From positions 1 to 24,662 of IMG/VR virus record IMGVR_UViG_3300009027_000033: DNA of 24,662 nt, one strand, 5' to 3'. Each line of letters opens with the position of its first letter. Positions within the stretch are counted from its first letter, which is position 1. A model generated the notes under the pieces. The model did no database searches. It saw nothing but the letters and a program-made list of their open reading frames with translations, and had not been told where the DNA came from. The DNA comes from a virus. The translations under genes and the position numbers were made by a program. Below are positions 2,441-21,539 of the stretch, piece after piece.

Positions 2441-2629
2441 ATGTGGGATGTGTTTTGGAACTTTCCTCTTTTCATGTATCATTTAATATTTACACTTTTA
2501 TTTTGGGTGATGATACTTACTGGGTTGTATGCAGTGGTAACATTCTACTGGGATAAATACAAAGATAAGTTGTCGTTTCCTAAACGTAATAAGGATGACG
2601 ATGACATCGATTGGGAGAATGGTATATGA
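2441..2629 (+). CDS. Small single-pass membrane protein, 62 aa
   Basis: The gene begins one base after the previous stop, with AAAGGAG just upstream. Residues 8-37 form one long hydrophobic segment (MYHLIFTLLFWVMILTGLY at its core), followed by a basic stretch (KYKDKLSFPKRNK) and an acidic tail (DDDDIDWE). A positive flank after the helix suggests the C-terminus is cytoplasmic. No family is recognised. It overlaps the next gene by ATGA. Confidence 0.6.
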   Translation: MWDVFWNFPLFMYHLIFTLLFWVMILTGLYAVVTFYWDKYKDKLSFPKRNKDDDDIDWENGI

Positions 2630-2790
2630 CCACAGATTTAATTTTAATTCACGCTGTTTTTATTCTTGCATGTGCAGGAGGTTCTTGGTTTGCAGGATGG
2701 AAACAAGGTAAACGAGACATCATTAATATGTTTATTGACGATGACTTGGTAACAATAGAGCAACTGGAAAGAAAATATTCGGACTCCTAA
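2626..2790 (+). CDS. Small membrane-anchored protein, 54 aa
   Basis: ATG at 2626 overlaps the previous stop by ATGA. The N-terminal 25 residues are hydrophobic (LILIHAVFILACAGGSWFAG), then the chain turns basic (WKQGKRD) and ends acidic and helical (DDDLVTIEQLERK). This is the layout of a single N-terminal membrane anchor with a short cytoplasmic tail. Function unknown. It is the last gene of the small-gene run; the stop at 2788 overlaps a CTAAATA sequence that may be a late promoter. Confidence 0.6.
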   Translation: MTTDLILIHAVFILACAGGSWFAGWKQGKRDIINMFIDDDLVTIEQLERKYSDS

Positions 2791-2808
2791 ATAACTATAT
2801 AAAATAAA
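2787..2808 (+). promoter_or_regulatory. Possible T4-type late promoter before the carbamoyltransferase
   Basis: CTAAATA (2787-2793), overlapping the previous stop, is followed by TATAAAATA (2798-2806). Both resemble the single-element late promoter of T4-like phages (TATAAATA and variants). A start 6-8 bases downstream of either would leave a short leader before ATG 2824. In AT-rich DNA such matches are easy to find by chance, so this is a weak call. Confidence 0.3.
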
Positions 2809-2823
2809 ACAGGAAAATATATT

Positions 2824-4017
2824 ATGGAAATTCTTGCGATTAATTCTTCACACGATACTTCGATTGTTACCTTTAAAGACGGTGAGATTACGAATGTGTG
2901 GGAAGAAGAAAGACACAGACGTGACAAGTATTGGTCACCTTCAGAGAGTGAAGCAGAACTCTTAACCATTGTTCAACGTGGTATTGAAACACCTGAACAC
3001 CTTGCATTTGCATCCTTTGACCGTAGAGTTCTTCTCTTAGGTTTCTCTGAAGAAGTTAAACAAGACCGTAGACTACAAATCGATATTGCAAATGCCTTTG
3101 CACACGAACAAGTAACTCGTAGTCGTCTTGAACTTATCATGGAAGAGTTCAATGTTAAAGGTGCAAAACCTCGTATTACGATTAAGGAAGAACTACTAGA
3201 CGGTGATAACACTATCCATGACAAGATGGCACAACAACTTGGAGTGGACAAATATCATTTTGAAACTGAACATCATTTGTATCATGCAGAGTGTGGATAT
3301 TATTTCTCACCTTGGTATGCAGACGATGAACCAGTGATTGCAATCGCATGGGACGGTGGTGGTGCCATGAGACACTATGAACGTTATCCTAATTATCAAG
3401 AAATTGAATCCATCTATCGTATCGATTCTAAACACACAGAACCCAAGTTACAATGGCAAAGACTCTCTAATCATAGAGGATTAAGTGAGTGGAAAGCTGA
3501 TGGGTTTGTTAACATGTTAGAAAATTGTTTGGATTGTCCTGACGATTTAGAAGTTGAGATTGAAGGTGTACCAACAGTGTTCACTTCCCTACCCTCATGT
3601 GGTATGAACTTTAGTAATCTGTCCTATGCATTAGGATGTGATACAAAAGGTCGTGCAGCAGGTAAGGTTATGGGTATGGCATCTTATGCACCTCAACCGA
3701 TTACAGACAATGTGTTTTCTAGACATACAGTAGCACAACAATGTGAACTGGAGTCCTTAGAACACTCCTGTGCAATTATTCAACGTGCATTAGACCTAAA
3801 CCCTGACCTTAAGAAAATCGTCCTCTCAGGCGGTTACTCGTTGAACTGTACAAACAATTATAAGTACATGCAACGATTCCCTGATGTAGAATTCTTCGTT
3901 GACCCTATTGCACACGATGGTGGAACTGCAGTTGGAGTTACATTAAATCTTGCAAGACACTTAGAGGATAAAATCGTTGAGGAAGTAACTGAAACATTAA
4001 ATGGAGAAGAAGAATGA
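2824..4017 (+). CDS. Carbamoyltransferase, N-terminal (Kae1-like) half
   Basis: The 397-residue product matches the ASKHA/Kae1-like half of the NodU/CmcH/TobZ carbamoyltransferases, which make carbamoyl-adenylate and pass the carbamoyl group to a hydroxyl on a sugar or antibiotic. Visible motifs are NSSHDTS at 7-13, the metal-site block EHHLYHAE (H150, H151, H154), WDGGGA around 176-181, LSGGYSLNC at 334-342 and HDGGTAVG at 364-371. Family members usually have about 500-600 residues in one chain. Here the chain stops just after the Kae1-like domain and the remainder is encoded by the next gene, which overlaps by ATGA. The two products presumably assemble. Marine T4-like phages are known to carry carbamoyltransferases; the substrate is unknown. 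Confidence 0.85.
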   Translation: MEILAINSSHDTSIVTFKDGEITNVWEEERHRRDKYWSPSESEAELLTIVQRGIETPEHLAFASFDRRVLLLGFSEEVKQDRRLQIDIANAFAHEQVTRSRLELIMEEFNVKGAKPRITIKEELLDGDNTIHDKMAQQLGVDKYHFETEHHLYHAECGYYFSPWYADDEPVIAIAWDGGGAMRHYERYPNYQEIESIYRIDSKHTEPKLQWQRLSNHRGLSEWKADGFVNMLENCLDCPDDLEVEIEGVPTVFTSLPSCGMNFSNLSYALGCDTKGRAAGKVMGMASYAPQPITDNVFSRHTVAQQCELESLEHSCAIIQRALDLNPDLKKIVLSGGYSLNCTNNYKYMQRFPDVEFFVDPIAHDGGTAVGVTLNLARHLEDKIVEEVTETLNGEEE

Positions 4018-11495: not shown

Positions 11496-11572
11496 GTCCT
11501 TGTAGCTCAATCGGATAGAGCAACGGTCTTCTAAACCGTAGGTTACAGGTTCGACTCCTGTCAGGGACGCCA
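11496..11572 (+). tRNA. tRNA-Arg (anticodon UCU)
   Basis: A complete cloverleaf can be drawn. The acceptor GTCCTTG pairs with CAGGGAC with one G-U pair; the D arm is in GCTCAATCGGATAGAGC; the anticodon stem ACGGT/ACCGT encloses CTTCTAA with anticodon TCT; the T arm is ACAGG-TTCGACT-CCTGT. The gene encodes its own 3' GCCA. It reads AGA (and AGG), a codon frequent in AT-rich phage genes. Confidence 0.95.
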
Positions 11573-11589
11573 AATACAGAGGGTAAGTT

Positions 11590-11727
11590 ATGGAACTTAC
11601 ACTAACAATCTTTTTGTGGTTAATAATAATTATCACAATAACCGTAGTAGGAGTATCCTTTTGGTTGACCTATGATTTAATTAAGTTCGATTTATTTCCT
11701 AAGGAGGAAGAAGAAGATGAACTATGA
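11590..11727 (+). CDS. Small single-pass membrane protein, 45 aa
   Basis: ATG 11590 is preceded by GAGGG (11579-11583). Residues 3-28 are almost wholly hydrophobic (LTIFLWLIIIITITVVGVSF), followed by a short acidic tail (PKEEEEDEL). One membrane helix is predicted. It lies between tRNA-Arg and the next gene, which it overlaps by 11 bases, and its tail codons supply that gene's AAGGAGG site. No family is recognised. Confidence 0.6.
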   Translation: MELTLTIFLWLIIIITITVVGVSFWLTYDLIKFDLFPKEEEEDEL

Positions 11728-12061
11728 CCGTTTTGATTTAGAAGAACAAATCATGAAGTGTTGGAGTGTGGTTGATGATGTGAATGATTTGTATGAACAC
11801 ATTGGAGACAGTGGTGAGTTTGTTGACATGCCACCCAAGTACGTTGACAAAGTAATGAACAAATTGTTGGGAGTCAAAGAACTCTATGACATGCGATTCC
11901 AAAAACTATGGGATGTCTTTGACTATATGATTAAGGATGGTCAGTTTCAAAATGATTTTTATAACGATGAGTTCGTACAATTAGAATTAGAAGGTATTGA
12001 CGATATTCCACTGAGAGACCTAACTGATACGGAGATTATAGACCTAAAATACGGAGATTAG
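11717..12061 (+). CDS. Acidic hypothetical protein, 114 aa
   Basis: AAGGAGG at 11701-11707 supports ATG 11717. The product is acidic and helical, with EEQIMKCWSVVDDVNDLYEH near the start and KVMNKLLGVKELYDMRFQ in the middle, and ends in TDTEIIDLKYGD. No domain is recognised, though proteins of this type occur in marine T4-like phages. The last ten bases, including the TAG stop, are inside tRNA-Pro, so this message and the mature tRNA cannot come intact from the same transcript copy. Confidence 0.65.
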   Translation: MNYDRFDLEEQIMKCWSVVDDVNDLYEHIGDSGEFVDMPPKYVDKVMNKLLGVKELYDMRFQKLWDVFDYMIKDGQFQNDFYNDEFVQLELEGIDDIPLRDLTDTEIIDLKYGD

Positions 12062-12128
12062 CGCAGTCAGGTAGCGCACTCGTTTTGGGGACGAGTGGTC
12101 ACAGGTTCAAATCCTGTATCTCCGACCA
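12052..12128 (+). tRNA. tRNA-Pro (anticodon UGG)
   Basis: The acceptor CGGAGAT pairs with ATCTCCG; the D arm is in AGCGCAGTCAGGTAGCGC; the anticodon stem CTCGT/ACGAG encloses TTTGGGG with anticodon TGG; the T arm is ACAGG-TTCAAAT-CCTGT. A 3' ACCA is encoded. Its first ten bases are also the end of the preceding coding region. It decodes CCA and other CCN codons. Confidence 0.95.
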
Positions 12129-12129
12129 T

Positions 12130-12214
12130 GCCTGAGTGGTGGAATTGGTATACACAAGGGACTTAAAATCCCTCGTCTTCGGACATGCGAGTTCAAGTCT
12201 CGCCTCAGGCACCA
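12130..12214 (+). tRNA. tRNA-Leu (anticodon UAA)
   Basis: The acceptor GCCTGAG pairs with CTCAGGC; the anticodon stem AGGGA/TCCCT encloses CTTAAAA with anticodon TAA. A long variable arm (CGTCTTCGGACATG) marks it as a class II leucine tRNA, and the T arm is GCGAG-TTCAAGT-CTCGC. A 3' ACCA is encoded. It lies one base after tRNA-Pro, so both are likely cut from one precursor. It decodes TTA, a frequent codon in this window. Confidence 0.95.
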
Positions 12215-18477: not shown

Positions 18478-19178
18478 TAGGTAACGGCCCAAGTCGTTTA
18501 CAATATGATTTAAATGACATTGGAGAATGGTGGGGGTGTAATCGAATCTACAAAGATGCAACACCTGACATTCTCTTTTGTATGGATATACCTCAACAGG
18601 TAGATATCATTACAAGTGGATATCACAAAGAACATAAGGTTGCTGTCGGTGGTTGGGAACCCTTGGAAATGGAATACTATTATGGTATGAAGATAGGGTT
18701 ACAATTTGGTGAACAAAAAATTGTCGACAATGTAAATCAAGAAGACGATTGGTTTGTGGTTATGGGTGACCGTCAATGTATGGATTTACTTAGCTATAGC
18801 AATTCCCAAAAGGATAACATAGTTATATATAATTTTTTAAATCTCAAGAACCTCTTTACTGGAATGTCTGCATTAGGATATGCCATGGAACAAGGAAGAG
18901 AAGAGATTACACTAATAGGTTTTGATGCATTACAACATGGTGATGTGTCGAATGTGTATGAAGGTGAAGATTTTTATTTACCTAAATATACTACTGAGGA
19001 CAGAGTGTTTGATGCACAACGTTCTCAATTCATTGCACTGTTAAAGCAGTATCCGAATAGTCGAGTTTATTTCAAAAACTCACTAGACGAACTGGAGTTG
19101 ACAGTGTATAATGAACTTAATTACTATGAAAGTAGTGATGAATGGATTCTTGGAGAAGGGTTTCTTCAAGAGTCTTAA
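18465..19178 (+). CDS. Sialyltransferase/DUF115-like protein
   Basis: The 237-residue protein starts TIVGNGPSRLQYDL (GNGPS at 6-10), then WWGCNRIYKDATPDILFCMD with CNR at 25-27, and later LFTGMSALGYAMEQGREEIT and LIGFDALQHG (GFD at 152-154). The GNGPS start, CNxxY, TSG/TGM-helix and GFD strand match the GT-A-like fold of GT42/GT29 sialyltransferases and the related DUF115/MptE proteins. Transferase activity on a sugar or lipid is possible; not all DUF115 proteins are transferases. It overlaps gp59 by 13 bases and sits before gp32, an insertion relative to T4 order. Confidence 0.65.
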   Translation: MLTIVGNGPSRLQYDLNDIGEWWGCNRIYKDATPDILFCMDIPQQVDIITSGYHKEHKVAVGGWEPLEMEYYYGMKIGLQFGEQKIVDNVNQEDDWFVVMGDRQCMDLLSYSNSQKDNIVIYNFLNLKNLFTGMSALGYAMEQGREEITLIGFDALQHGDVSNVYEGEDFYLPKYTTEDRVFDAQRSQFIALLKQYPNSRVYFKNSLDELELTVYNELNYYESSDEWILGEGFLQES

Positions 19179-19215
19179 TATAATAAGATACAATGCAATA
19201 CAATAGGAGAATACA

Positions 19216-20118
19216 ATGTCATCTTTAGATAAACTTAGACAGGCCATGGAGTCTGCAACTCCCCAATCTGGCGGAGAAAAAAAATCTTACGGCGATGATC
19301 GCTTTTGGAAACCTGAACTCGACAAGAGTGGTAATGGGTTTGCTGTGATTCGCTTCTTACCTACCCCTGAAGGGGAAGAAATGCCTTGGGCATCCTACTG
19401 GGATCATGGATTCCAAGGGCCTGGTGGTTGGTATATCGAGAAGTCTCTAACGACTATCGGTAAACAAGACCCTGTGTCAGAATACAACACTCAGTTGTGG
19501 AACACTGGGATTGAGGCAAACAAAGAACAGGCACGTAAACAGAAAAGACGTTTACACTATGTGTCTAATATTTTTGTTGTATCAGACCCTAAAAATCCTG
19601 ACAACGAAGGTAAAGTCTTCCTTTATCGTTATGGTAAAAAAATCTTCGAACAACTTAAGGAGGCAATCTCACCTGCATTTGAGGACGAGAAAGCAATCAA
19701 TCCTTTTGACTTGAGAGAAGAAGGTGCAAACTTCAAAATCAAAATTAGAAAAGTTGATGGTTATTGGAACTACGACAAATCTGAGTTTGAAACACCTGCA
19801 CCACTTTTTGATGATGAAACTAAGTTGAATACTATAAATAGTTCAACTTTCTCATTGTCAGAAATCGTTGCACCAAATGAGTTCAAGTCTTACGAAGAAC
19901 TCAAAGAGAAACTAGACAGAGTACTAGGTCTCTCAGGTGGTGTGAGTACATCAACTGCAGAATCAGTTGCAGAAGACCTAGATGAAGTGCCTTGGTCAAA
20001 TGTAAATACTGCATCTGTAGCAGATGAACCTGTAGTCCCATCAGTGGAAACATCTTCAGAAAGTGTCGAAGAGGATGATGATGCGATGGACTACTTCAAA
20101 AGACTTGCTACAGAGTAG
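19216..20118 (+). CDS. 32: Single-stranded-DNA-binding protein gp32
   Basis: The 300-residue protein matches T4 gp32 (301). The basic N-terminal cooperativity segment (SSLDKLRQAMES) is followed by the OB-fold core: DDRFWKPELDKSGNGFAVIR, YWDHGFQGPGGWYIEKSLTT and LHYVSNIFVVSDPKNPDNEG, then GKVFLYRYGKKIFEQL. The C-terminus is acidic (VETSSESVEEDDDAMDYF), used to recruit partners. T4 gp32 holds zinc through cysteines and a histidine; this one has no cysteine, as in marine relatives. AGGAG precedes ATG 19216. It coats DNA at forks and in recombination and works with gp59. A noncoding structured region follows. Confidence 0.92.
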   Translation: MSSLDKLRQAMESATPQSGGEKKSYGDDRFWKPELDKSGNGFAVIRFLPTPEGEEMPWASYWDHGFQGPGGWYIEKSLTTIGKQDPVSEYNTQLWNTGIEANKEQARKQKRRLHYVSNIFVVSDPKNPDNEGKVFLYRYGKKIFEQLKEAISPAFEDEKAINPFDLREEGANFKIKIRKVDGYWNYDKSEFETPAPLFDDETKLNTINSSTFSLSEIVAPNEFKSYEELKEKLDRVLGLSGGVSTSTAESVAEDLDEVPWSNVNTASVADEPVVPSVETSSESVEEDDDAMDYFKRLATE

Positions 20119-20135
20119 TAAGTCTTAGTATAGGG

Positions 20136-20272
20136 GATGGAAGATTACATTATGTGTGTCCGTGATAAGTCTTCCATTTCACTGAGACCGTGGATTATAA
20201 ATGGGGGTACTCAGTAAGGGCAAGATGATGTGTGTAAAAGCGGTGTCATCGGTATGTAGCGGGAATGCTGTA
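20136..20272 (+). ncRNA. Candidate structured RNA with four stem-loops, upstream of S21
   Basis: The 197 bases between gp32 and S21 hold no gene but can fold into four consecutive hairpins. Stem 1: 20137-20146 with 20168-20177, ten pairs including one G-U. Stem 2: ACTGAG (20181-20186) with CTCAGT (20210-20215), extended by ACC/GGT around one bulged A. Stem 3: GATGA (20224-20228) with TCATC (20246-20250), plus G-U pairs. Stem 4: 20255-20260 with 20267-20272, six pairs including two G-U. The stretch is more G-rich than its surroundings. TAAGTCTT occurs twice (20119-20126, 20166-20173) and both copies could compete for the AAGATT segment. It could be a small RNA or a 5' leader controlling S21. 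No known RNA family is recognised. Confidence 0.55.
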
Positions 20273-20315
20273 AGGCGTGGGGCGAACATACACTTTTTAA
20301 GAGAAATAAATTAAT

Positions 20316-20549
20316 ATGCCAAGTATAACACCAAGGAAAAATCCGAAGACTAATAATGTCGAACCTTTTGACAGAATGCTTCGTAGGTTTAAGAAATCAT
20401 GTGAACGTGCAGGTATTGTACAAGAAGTCCGTGAACGAGAATATTTTGAAAAACCTGCATCGATTCGTAATCAAAAGAATCAAGACATTAAGAGACGTAA
20501 GAAATTACAAGCAAAAAGAGATGCAATTAAAAATTATCGCAGGAAATAA
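20316..20549 (+). CDS. rpsU: Ribosomal protein bS21 homologue
   Basis: The 77-residue basic protein matches bacterial bS21 (71 in E. coli): [19 protein letters not shown] at 16-34, then [13 protein letters not shown] at 35-47 and a lysine/arginine-rich helical tail. bS21 sits on the small subunit near the anti-Shine-Dalgarno end of 16S rRNA and helps initiation. Phage copies are known in pelagiphages and other aquatic phages and are thought to replace the host protein and favour phage messages. Its own binding site is weak (AAGAGA about ten bases upstream), and a structured noncoding stretch precedes it, suggesting controlled translation. Confidence 0.88.
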
Positions 20550-20551
20550 AC

Positions 20552-20722
20552 ATGAACGGCAAAGGTTCAAAGAGACGACCACAAGTTATCTCTCAATCAC
20601 AATTCGAAGAAGCATGGGATAAAATCTTTGTAAGAAAGGTTACACCTGAGCATGGAATAACTCACGTGCATAAAGATAAAACTAAGGTCATTCCAAGAAA
20701 ACAAAAGTACAATGATATATAA
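20552..20722 (+). CDS. Small phage protein, MNGKGSKRRP type, 56 aa
   Basis: ATG 20552 is two bases after the S21 stop, with AGGA about eight bases upstream. The product starts MNGKGSKRRPQVISQSQFEE and contains AWDKIF and a basic end. Small phage proteins starting MNGKGSKPRP with a WDxIF motif are widespread, function unknown. It probably belongs to the S21 transcript. It overlaps the next gene by 11 bases. Confidence 0.65.
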   Translation: MNGKGSKRRPQVISQSQFEEAWDKIFVRKVTPEHGITHVHKDKTKVIPRKQKYNDI

Positions 20723-21539
20723 TATCACTAATCCTGACTATAGTCTTAATCAAGATGCTATAGAAAGACTTAGAGGAGATTTCGAAACCGTATCAAAGGT
20801 TGCACCTCCTAAGATTGTTAAACTAGGTGATGCAATGCATCGTTATAACCTAATAGAAGATATCAATCCTTCACTTCCATACGTTAAACACTTACTGAAT
20901 AATTTACATCGTGAACCTGTAACCAAAGAAACCTTTGGTGTTAAGATGTCAAATCCTGATGATAACAATAACTTTCATGCAATCAAACTCATGTATCTTA
21001 TTCATACAGCTATAACAACAGGATTCTATTCATATTGTCAAGCATGTATTCATACAAAACGTCAGAATCCTAAGTGGTTTGTACATCCAGGCCAGTTCAG
21101 AGAGAAAGCATTAATTCATTGTGGTAAAGAGGATGCAGAGTTCATCGTGTGGGACAGTCAGAATATGATTGATGCACCTGTACTATCATTCGATGATTGG
21201 AGTTCTAAGTTCTTACACAATGCAGAACACGAAAGAGATTTACACATTGCAGTCCACAACGAAGAACATAAAAAAATTGTTGAGTTTCATGTAGGTGAAG
21301 ACAGACCTGCATTCTATGATTTAGGACAACAAGTTTTCGAAATGTATGGTGGTAAGAAACCATACCTCATTGGTGAATGTAATGATTCCATTGCAGAGTA
21401 CTTCAGTAATGATGAATCAAGTAACGTTCATGTCCATGCTCATCAAAAACTGCAAGAATCAGATTTGATGATTCTATTAACTGCCCATCCAAATATAGGA
21501 GATATTCGTACAGATAGTCTGACCATTTCTCGTAAATAA
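20712..21539 (+). CDS. Hypothetical protein, 275 aa
   Basis: The protein is not recognised. It is rich in histidine: YLIHTAITTGFYSYCQACIH, HPGQFREKALIHCGKED, FLHNAEHERDLHIAVHNEEH and NVHVHAHQKL. Clustered histidines may bind metal, but no known motif is complete. GKKPYLIGECNDSIAEYF reads like a strand-helix unit of an alpha/beta fold, so an enzyme is possible. It overlaps the preceding gene and ends 16 bases before the next; ATAAATA (21542-21548) sits in that gap but too close to the next ATG to be a clear promoter for it. Confidence 0.6.
   Translation: MIYNITNPDYSLNQDAIERLRGDFETVSKVAPPKIVKLGDAMHRYNLIEDINPSLPYVKHLLNNLHREPVTKETFGVKMSNPDDNNNFHAIKLMYLIHTAITTGFYSYCQACIHTKRQNPKWFVHPGQFREKALIHCGKEDAEFIVWDSQNMIDAPVLSFDDWSSKFLHNAEHERDLHIAVHNEEHKKIVEFHVGEDRPAFYDLGQQVFEMYGGKKPYLIGECNDSIAEYFSNDESSNVHVHAHQKLQESDLMILLTAHPNIGDIRTDSLTISRK

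Follow-up and report, generated by a model that had tools for sequence, protein, structure and literature searches.

GOLLD and ROOL are structured noncoding RNAs of phages and prophages, of unknown function, and GOLLD is described in the same source as rising during lysis (PMC12286853). The RNA reported here is likewise a structured phage RNA; however, GOLLD and ROOL are much larger (GOLLD often >800 nt) and often lie near tRNA islands, whereas the present RNA measures ~160 nt and lies behind gp32. Neither family has an Rfam match at gathering score in the window, by which we mean the whole stretch of 24,662 nucleotides analysed. OLE, another structured noncoding RNA, is tied to ribosomal protein bS21, which is reported to bind it (PMC12054373), and the present RNA always has an S21 gene nearby where enough DNA is available. 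As described there, OLE is bacterial, ~600 nt long and carries a bS21 site that copies the anti-Shine-Dalgarno sequence, whereas no 16S-like stretch was detected in the present RNA.

The rpsB and rpsL leader motifs (Pelagibacter and others) are also structured RNAs of marine genomes that neighbour a ribosomal protein gene (PMC2704228). These leaders precede their own gene, whereas the present RNA stays behind gp32 even where S21 lies elsewhere. Structured RNAs described from marine T4-like phages include the glnA riboswitch, manA, wcaG and PhotoRC-II (PMC9004378, PMC2864571), which are Rfam families and cis-elements placed before genes; none of them reaches gathering score on the present RNA. 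A noncoding RNA of ~225 nt, the CfrI antisense RNA, is described from the T4-like marine cyanophage S-PM2 (PMC2984593); it lies antisense at psbA, and our two covariance models (R1 and R2, below) find no copy of the present RNA in S-PM2. A riboswitch scan of pelagimyophages is reported to have found nothing (PMC7029224). Our search of the open PMC literature listed no paper on such an RNA and none combining 'ribosomal protein S21', gp32 and marine. The locus adds a well-supported RNA family to the marine T4-like phages, where few noncoding RNAs have been described.

A four-hairpin RNA in the gap behind gp32

The window is a 24.7-kb piece of a T4-like marine phage, held as a virus record. Its gp32 gene ends at 20118 and its S21 gene starts at 20316, leaving a gap of 197 bases, as an earlier note on this DNA had correctly counted. 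That note's other observations on the gap are borne out: it is richer in G than its surroundings (28.9% versus 20.5% in the whole window, with 0.33% of 197-nt windows as G-rich), it folds into four stem-loops in series (P1–P4; Table 1) and the S21 gene that follows has a weak ribosome binding site, with only AAGAG 12 nt before the ATG. The + strand of the gap has a folding energy of -55.5 kcal/mol (z -3.24), matched by none of 200 shuffles, and the opposite strand gives z -2.66, with one of 200 shuffles as low. On its own, the 162-nt RNA reaches -52.4 kcal/mol, a value equalled by 1 of 409 sliding contig windows, which may itself overlap the RNA. Its G-runs lie mostly outside the helices of the four hairpins.

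Table 1. Coordinates of the RNA, its elements and its flanking genes in the window.
Feature	Position	Strand	Evidence or remark
gp32, T4-type single-stranded DNA binding protein	19216..20118	+	PF08804 1e-38, PHROG 224
Structured RNA	~20133..20294	+	Probable extent, from conservation; covariation
First TAAGTCTT copy	20119..20126	+	No supported helix contains the first copy; end-pairing test negative
G-run, P1 foot	20133..20136	+	GGG there in 89/98 distinct relatives among the matches listed (simple rule)
Hairpin P1	20137..20177	+	Arms 20137-20144 / 20170-20177
Hairpin P2	20181..20215	+	Arms 20181-20186 / 20210-20215; inner CC 20188-20189 with GG 20206-20207; G-run 20203-20207
P2-P3 junction AAGGGCAA	20216..20223	+	GGG and AA invariant in 41 distinct sequences
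Hairpin P3	20224..20250	+	Arms 20224-20230 / 20244-20250; GCGG at 20240-20243
Hairpin P4	20252..20291	+	Arms 20252-20257 / 20286-20291; core GCGGG 20259-20263, GGGGC 20279-20283
Small hairpin within P4, GUAA loop	20267..20276	+	87% of cells paired; no pair with two-sided changes
Weak Shine-Dalgarno-like AAGAG of S21	20299..20303	+	Sequence; 12 nt ahead of ATG
Phage ribosomal protein bS21	20316..20549	+	PF01165 4.2e-14, PHROG 21469

Relatives of the gap were collected in two ways. An S21 protein search of IMG/VR gave 80 loci that we kept, and gp32 lies upstream of S21 in 78 of them; the two others are contigs without gp32. A scan of viral contigs with a DNA pattern of the RNA core returned at least 119 stretches, and the counts drawn from it describe a sample, among the matches listed. 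The two collections together hold 196 pattern loci, which comprise 183 with gp32 before and S21 after the RNA, placing the spacer RNA upstream of S21 in relatives as the earlier note had required, together with 8 with gp32 only, 2 with S21 only and 3 chance matches with neither; gp32 is upstream of the RNA in 191 of the 196. Dropping those with no nearby gp32 stop or with an incomplete tail left 190 loci, which yielded 98 distinct RNAs among the matches listed.

For the covariation analysis, we thinned the relatives at 92% identity to 41 distinct cores (alignment A2), leaving out four with long insertions or deletions (L089, L102, L107 and L170). In this alignment, 95.1% of the cells of P2–P4 are paired, and sliding the partners by 1 to 3 columns lowers the pairing to 30-42%. 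Double-changed cells number 201 against a shuffled mean of 53.8 (0 of 500 shuffles as high), an effect far larger than the advantage that the structure draws from having been built on the same sequences on which it is tested. Two-sided changes occur in 16 of 28 pairs, a count that 4 of 500 shuffles reach, and the covariation score is 0.531 versus 0.176 for shuffled alignments. The compensatory changes that the earlier note had called for are thus found in all three hairpins: in 4 of 8 pairs of P2 (98.2% of cells paired), 6 of 9 pairs of P3 (93.2%) and 6 of 8 pairs of P4 (97.3%). P1 was poorly aligned by MAFFT and was tested separately; a helix of 7-15 bp is present in 97 of the 98 distinct relatives among the matches listed, with 50 different 5' arms, the exception being L102. 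We conclude that the gap holds a real structured RNA with four hairpins.

A covariance model of the branch to which the window belongs (R1) scores the window's core at 20181-20294 with 113.6 bits, the window's own row having been used in building it. Among the best 80 gp32 loci nearest the window's, 49 are at 72-90% identity and all of these carry the RNA, at 67-122 bits. Six long carrier contigs hold one RNA copy each. In six relatives (L107, L128, L140, L170, L174 and L184), extra hairpins interrupt the tip of P2 between its GUGGA and GGGG segments, identifying the two as an internal loop. In L102:7393-7523 (also L423), P1 is absent, P2 is shortened and both G-runs are lost together; this copy may be decaying.

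Comparison with Rfam, which the earlier note had recommended, gave no match at gathering score. Rfam 15 reports only three tRNAs in the window, outside the RNA (Arg (TCT), Pro (TGG) and Leu (TAA), at 11496-12214), and it reports no family at gathering score on seven relatives. With E values up to 10, the gap and two RNAs of the second branch (below) gave only sub-threshold matches, the best at 20.2 bits against a cut-off of 39. Likeness to RNase P, tmRNA or a ribozyme was rejected on this basis, these being families in Rfam without a match. Several other identities were tried and discarded. Mimicry of 16S rRNA by P4 failed in alignments of eight RNAs to E. coli 16S, which scored no higher than alignments to shuffled 16S (for example, 72 of 100 as high); a profile HMM had no hit in 16S, whereas 87 of 300 shuffles yielded one, and the best covariance-model scores were 3.8 bits for 16S and 7.3 for 23S. 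A conserved small ORF is not supported, as a + frame is fully open in 25 of the 98 distinct relatives among the matches listed and the lengths of the core, taken modulo 3, are spread over all three classes. Judged by eye, kissing between the P1 loop and P2 lacks its loop partner in some relatives, and a G-quadruplex of the G-runs is at odds with one G-run being shorter in the second branch.

A second branch and the distribution of the RNA

At the next gp32 loci, with 58-62% identity, model R1 gives weak matches directly behind gp32 (L457, 19.3 bits; L466, 18.0 bits; L465, 12.1 bits); a further weak match of 15.0 bits falls on the opposite strand of L449. These loci led to a second branch, whose RNA comprises a G-run, P1, P2 with a GGGG loop, GAGGAAAG, P3 with GCGGCAG and P4 with GGC-GGG...GGG-GCC. 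In an alignment of 15 branch-2 sequences, 93.0% of cells are paired, 10 of 26 pairs have two-sided changes and double-changed cells number 24 versus 6.9 in shuffled alignments (0 of 500 as high). The pairings of both branches beat all slid controls. The shortest form of the RNA, ~95 nt with only a G-run, GAGGAAA, P3 and P4, occurs in L523:2215-2314 and L525:3290-3384 and may show a minimal core.

Model R2, built from this alignment, was run on 81 gp32 loci outside branch 1 and matched 10, in each case behind gp32. Of another 100 loci, it matched 44 at E up to 1, the last six scoring 17.7-18.8 bits. Each model locates the other branch at the right spot, albeit by weak single scores, which count against our preferred reading: R1 finds three branch-2 loci at 12-19 bits, and R2 gives six matches of 16.5-19.6 bits, each exactly on the RNA, in 25 branch-1 sources. 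In the window itself, R2 gives only a chance match of 9.7 bits and leaves the RNA unmatched. In a joint alignment (A4), which misaligns P3 between the branches, the GCGGG...GGGGC of P4 is nearly unbroken across both, and the GUAA-loop hairpin inside P4 is shrunken or missing in branch 2. The homology of the branches therefore rests on place, shared elements and intermediate forms (the L125-type P4 and L638) and not on one strong score.

We placed the carriers on a quick gp32 tree with 81 rows, made up of the window, seven named phages and 73 rows left after thinning 257. All 47 RNA carriers on this tree group in a single clade with SH-aLRT 99, and one change explains their distribution; the RNA therefore had a single origin. 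Its retention by every testable member of this clade suggests that it is important to infection. Outside the clade, model R1 gave no convincing match in 80 Melnitz-like gp32 loci, and neither model gave one in the whole genomes of Melnitz-3, HTVC008M, AG-345-L05, P-SSM4, S-RIM2, S-SCSM2R, S-RSM4, ACG-2014a, S-B68, T4, KVP40, S-PM2 and P-SSM2. Weak matches of R2 in T4 (34853-34935, 13.9 bits, E 0.44) and S-RSM4 (12.8 bits, E 0.89) and of R1 in L273 (10.8 bits) were taken as chance. A scan of genome contigs with a short P4 motif listed matches over unrelated taxa; the motif is too loose, and the scan therefore says nothing about bacterial hosts. An annotated tmRNA lies near gp32 in the RNA-negative Melnitz-3 (L200:205-657).

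Position of the S21 gene and its control

In branch 1, the 98 distinct relatives among the matches listed fall into three classes by their RNA-S21 spacing. Class A, with S21 no more than 45 nt after the RNA, comprises 58 of the 98, including the window, and class B, with a spacing of 52-78 nt, comprises 16. The remaining 24 form class C, in which S21 lies ~0.8-0.9 kb off in 20 and is absent from the available DNA in 4; an extra gene of ~0.85 kb separates RNA and S21 in those 20, and in L042 (963-1838), the sole case tested, it encodes a DNA methyltransferase (PF01555). In the basal L638 group, a late promoter is followed by the RNA and then S21.

The earlier note had proposed that the gap is a leader through which S21 controls its own synthesis, with a free small RNA as the alternative. 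The window alone cannot separate the two, whereas the comparison can. S21 stands directly after the RNA in class A and the L638 group, an order that fits a leader as well and to that extent weighs against our preferred reading as a free RNA; the weak ribosome-binding site and the reported binding of bS21 to OLE (PMC12054373) point the same way. The spacers of class B do not: 15 of these 16 wide-gap loci have a TATAAT-like -10 element (13 exact) and 14 have at least four of six matches at -35, which puts a sigma70-like promoter between the RNA and S21. The same loose rule is also passed by eight of the 58 spacers in class A and eight of the 24 in class C, none with both hexamers perfect, whereas at least three class B spacers have both hexamers near or fully perfect (L005, L134 and L006, 12/12). 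The extra gene in 20 of the 98 relatives among the matches listed likewise speaks against a leader. A sigma70-like promoter, TTGACA-18-TATAAT, lies between RNA and S21 at L005:2965-2994; the window has none there, and the two gp32s are 98% identical.

The position of S21 across both branches bears on the same question. We located S21 with seven S21 queries, those of Melnitz and HTVC008M included. It is downstream of gp32 in 48 of 50 R1-like loci (33 of 33 with both flanks) and ~2.5 kb upstream of gp32 in 38 of 47 R2-like loci (38 of 38 where 1.9 kb or more of upstream DNA is available). It is near gp32 in 0 of 161 RNA-negative loci (76 with both flanks), and it lies far from gp32 in Melnitz (13 kb) and HTVC008M (86 kb), both without the RNA. 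Wherever a carrier locus offers enough DNA, S21 is thus less than 3 kb from the RNA (33/33 and 38/38), an association that favours a leader; however, it is confined to one clade and therefore counts as one event, and S21 lies upstream of gp32 in all branch-2 loci with sufficient upstream DNA. Within the carrier clade, S21 has changed sides while the RNA stayed behind gp32. This constancy of place while the downstream neighbours change indicates that the RNA is probably not an S21 leader.

Nor did the ends of the RNA behave as parts of a switch. The TAAGTCTT repeat at 20119 and 20166 that the earlier note reported is real, but its proposed role as two rival partners of one segment did not hold, the P1 arm with the second copy being unconserved in sequence and the end-pairing test negative. 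An outer helix of the RNA ends, which appears when the sequence is folded singly, was no more stable than chance in class A (own ends -3.41 versus swapped -3.38 kcal/mol; 89 of 200 swaps as low), and in classes B and C own ends were worse than swapped ones. Capture of the S21 ribosome-binding site by such a helix was rejected on the same test, a phage's own ends doing no better than swapped ones. The lack of any helix linking RNA ends and ribosome-binding site, together with that of a 16S-like site, counts further against self-control by S21, which we regard as very unlikely; the 38 branch-2 loci with S21 upstream and the 15 class B promoters show that the RNA does not lie in the S21 5' untranslated region in all carriers.

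The downstream neighbours in branch 2 also bear on whether the RNA heads late transcripts as a general leader, acting on RNA polymerase or on downstream translation in an antiterminator-like or standby-like manner. Such a leader would allow the downstream genes to differ, and the RNA would be the first structured element after a late promoter in both branch 2 and the L638 group. In type c2 of branch 2, however, a convergent frame abuts the RNA in 21 of 27 sequences (3 are too short; in L460 it is a 522-aa ORF), which leaves nothing on the strand of the RNA to control, and the closest branch has no late promoter. In type c3, the RNA is followed on its own strand by a small ORF in 13 of 15 sequences, a point against a free RNA, and in type c4 the neighbours are mixed. 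On balance, we consider a general late leader highly improbable. A riboswitch was rejected on the convergent frame of type c2 and on the unsupported rival outer pairing.

Late promoters, terminators and mode of action

We sorted 258 distinct gp32-downstream sequences by simple sequence rules into 47 R2-like, 45 R1-like and 166 with neither pattern, five of which proved to be RNA carriers (L427, L456, L638, L639 and L654). The motif TATAAATA is described as the late promoter of T4 and KVP40, with NATAAATA in S-PM2 (PMC2984593). Scored as a motif only, TATAAATA lies no more than 70 nt from the gp32 stop in all 47 R2-like, in 0 of 45 R1-like and in 17 of 166 other sequences. Three of those 17 are L638, L639 and L654; in the remaining 14, the motif mostly stands after a terminator and before a gene. 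In branch 1, it is absent from the 60 nt ahead of the RNA (0 of 98 distinct relatives among the matches listed). The reversed control motif also occurs in 21 of the 47 branch-2 sequences, which weakens the case for a promoter-borne free RNA, although this arises because TATAAATAT contains the reversed motif. In one long carrier contig from each branch, the motif stands before genes in 9 of 21 and 10 of 19 occurrences; its reversed form does so in 2 of 10 and 1 of 6.

These promoters bear in turn on the possibility that the RNA is a cis-acting 3'-UTR element of gp32, serving the stability, autocontrol or 3'-end formation of the gp32 message in the place of a terminator. Consistent with such an element, the RNA lies constantly and directly behind gp32 through one clade, and its RNA-negative relatives mostly show a terminator-like T-run at that place: a T-run of at least five within 160 nt of gp32 is present in 118 of 166 RNA-negative, 6 of 45 R1-like and 3 of 47 R2-like sequences. 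In branch 1, moreover, the RNA has to come from the gp32 transcript if there is no further promoter. Against it, the late promoter of all 47 branch-2 sequences stands between gp32 and the RNA, so that the branch-2 RNA can be made without gp32. The terminator scan also passed over P4 and its U tract, finding no terminator in the window at 19000-20800 or in L005 at 2500-3300, and the U-runs after P4 are short in many branch-1 relatives. An intrinsic terminator of gp32, understood as a G+C-rich stem with an immediate T-run, was accordingly rejected, with the scan negative and T-runs rare in carriers. We consider a gp32 3'-UTR element unlikely.

The evidence points instead to a stand-alone RNA, originally late, and not to an S21 switch; the free small RNA that the earlier note had held as its alternative fits best, with a late-promoter motif of its own in 47 of 47 branch-2 sequences. 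We think it probable that the locus represents a new family of phage noncoding RNA, anchored to gp32, ancestrally a late transcription unit and acting in trans. The ancestral RNA would have had its own T4-type late promoter, TATAAATA, and would have been transcribed separately, at a late stage of infection. In the window's branch, where the promoter has gone, the RNA is presumably co-transcribed with gp32 (and S21); a conserved CAC/CAUC directly after P4 may be where processing or partial termination frees it. No TATAAATA stands near the RNA there, and a separate transcript in branch 1 is therefore something that we infer. The folded RNA would work in trans, most likely as an RNA-protein particle, and its binding surface may be formed by the invariant G-rich internal loops of P2 and P4 together with the GCGG loop of P3. 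We likewise infer from these patterns that the RNA accumulates, is processed in branch 1, acts in trans and has a protein partner.

By analogy with OLE, that partner could be the phage bS21, with the RNA at the core of a phage ribonucleoprotein that would act on ribosomes or translation late in infection. Although we hold this specific version to be quite unlikely, such a particle would explain why the S21 gene is never more than 3 kb from the RNA in carrier loci that have enough DNA, be it before or after gp32, and why in Melnitz and HTVC008M S21 is elsewhere and the RNA is missing. The closeness of the S21 gene in carriers makes a particle of this kind directly testable, and the RNA bears on what phage-encoded ribosomal proteins are for.

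The upstream regions of gp32 (243 loci) show a further difference between the groups: of 154 RNA-negative loci, 63 have TATAAATA in the 160 nt ahead of gp32, as against one of 46 in branch 2. In branch 2, whose RNA has a late promoter, gp32 itself thus seems to be without one.
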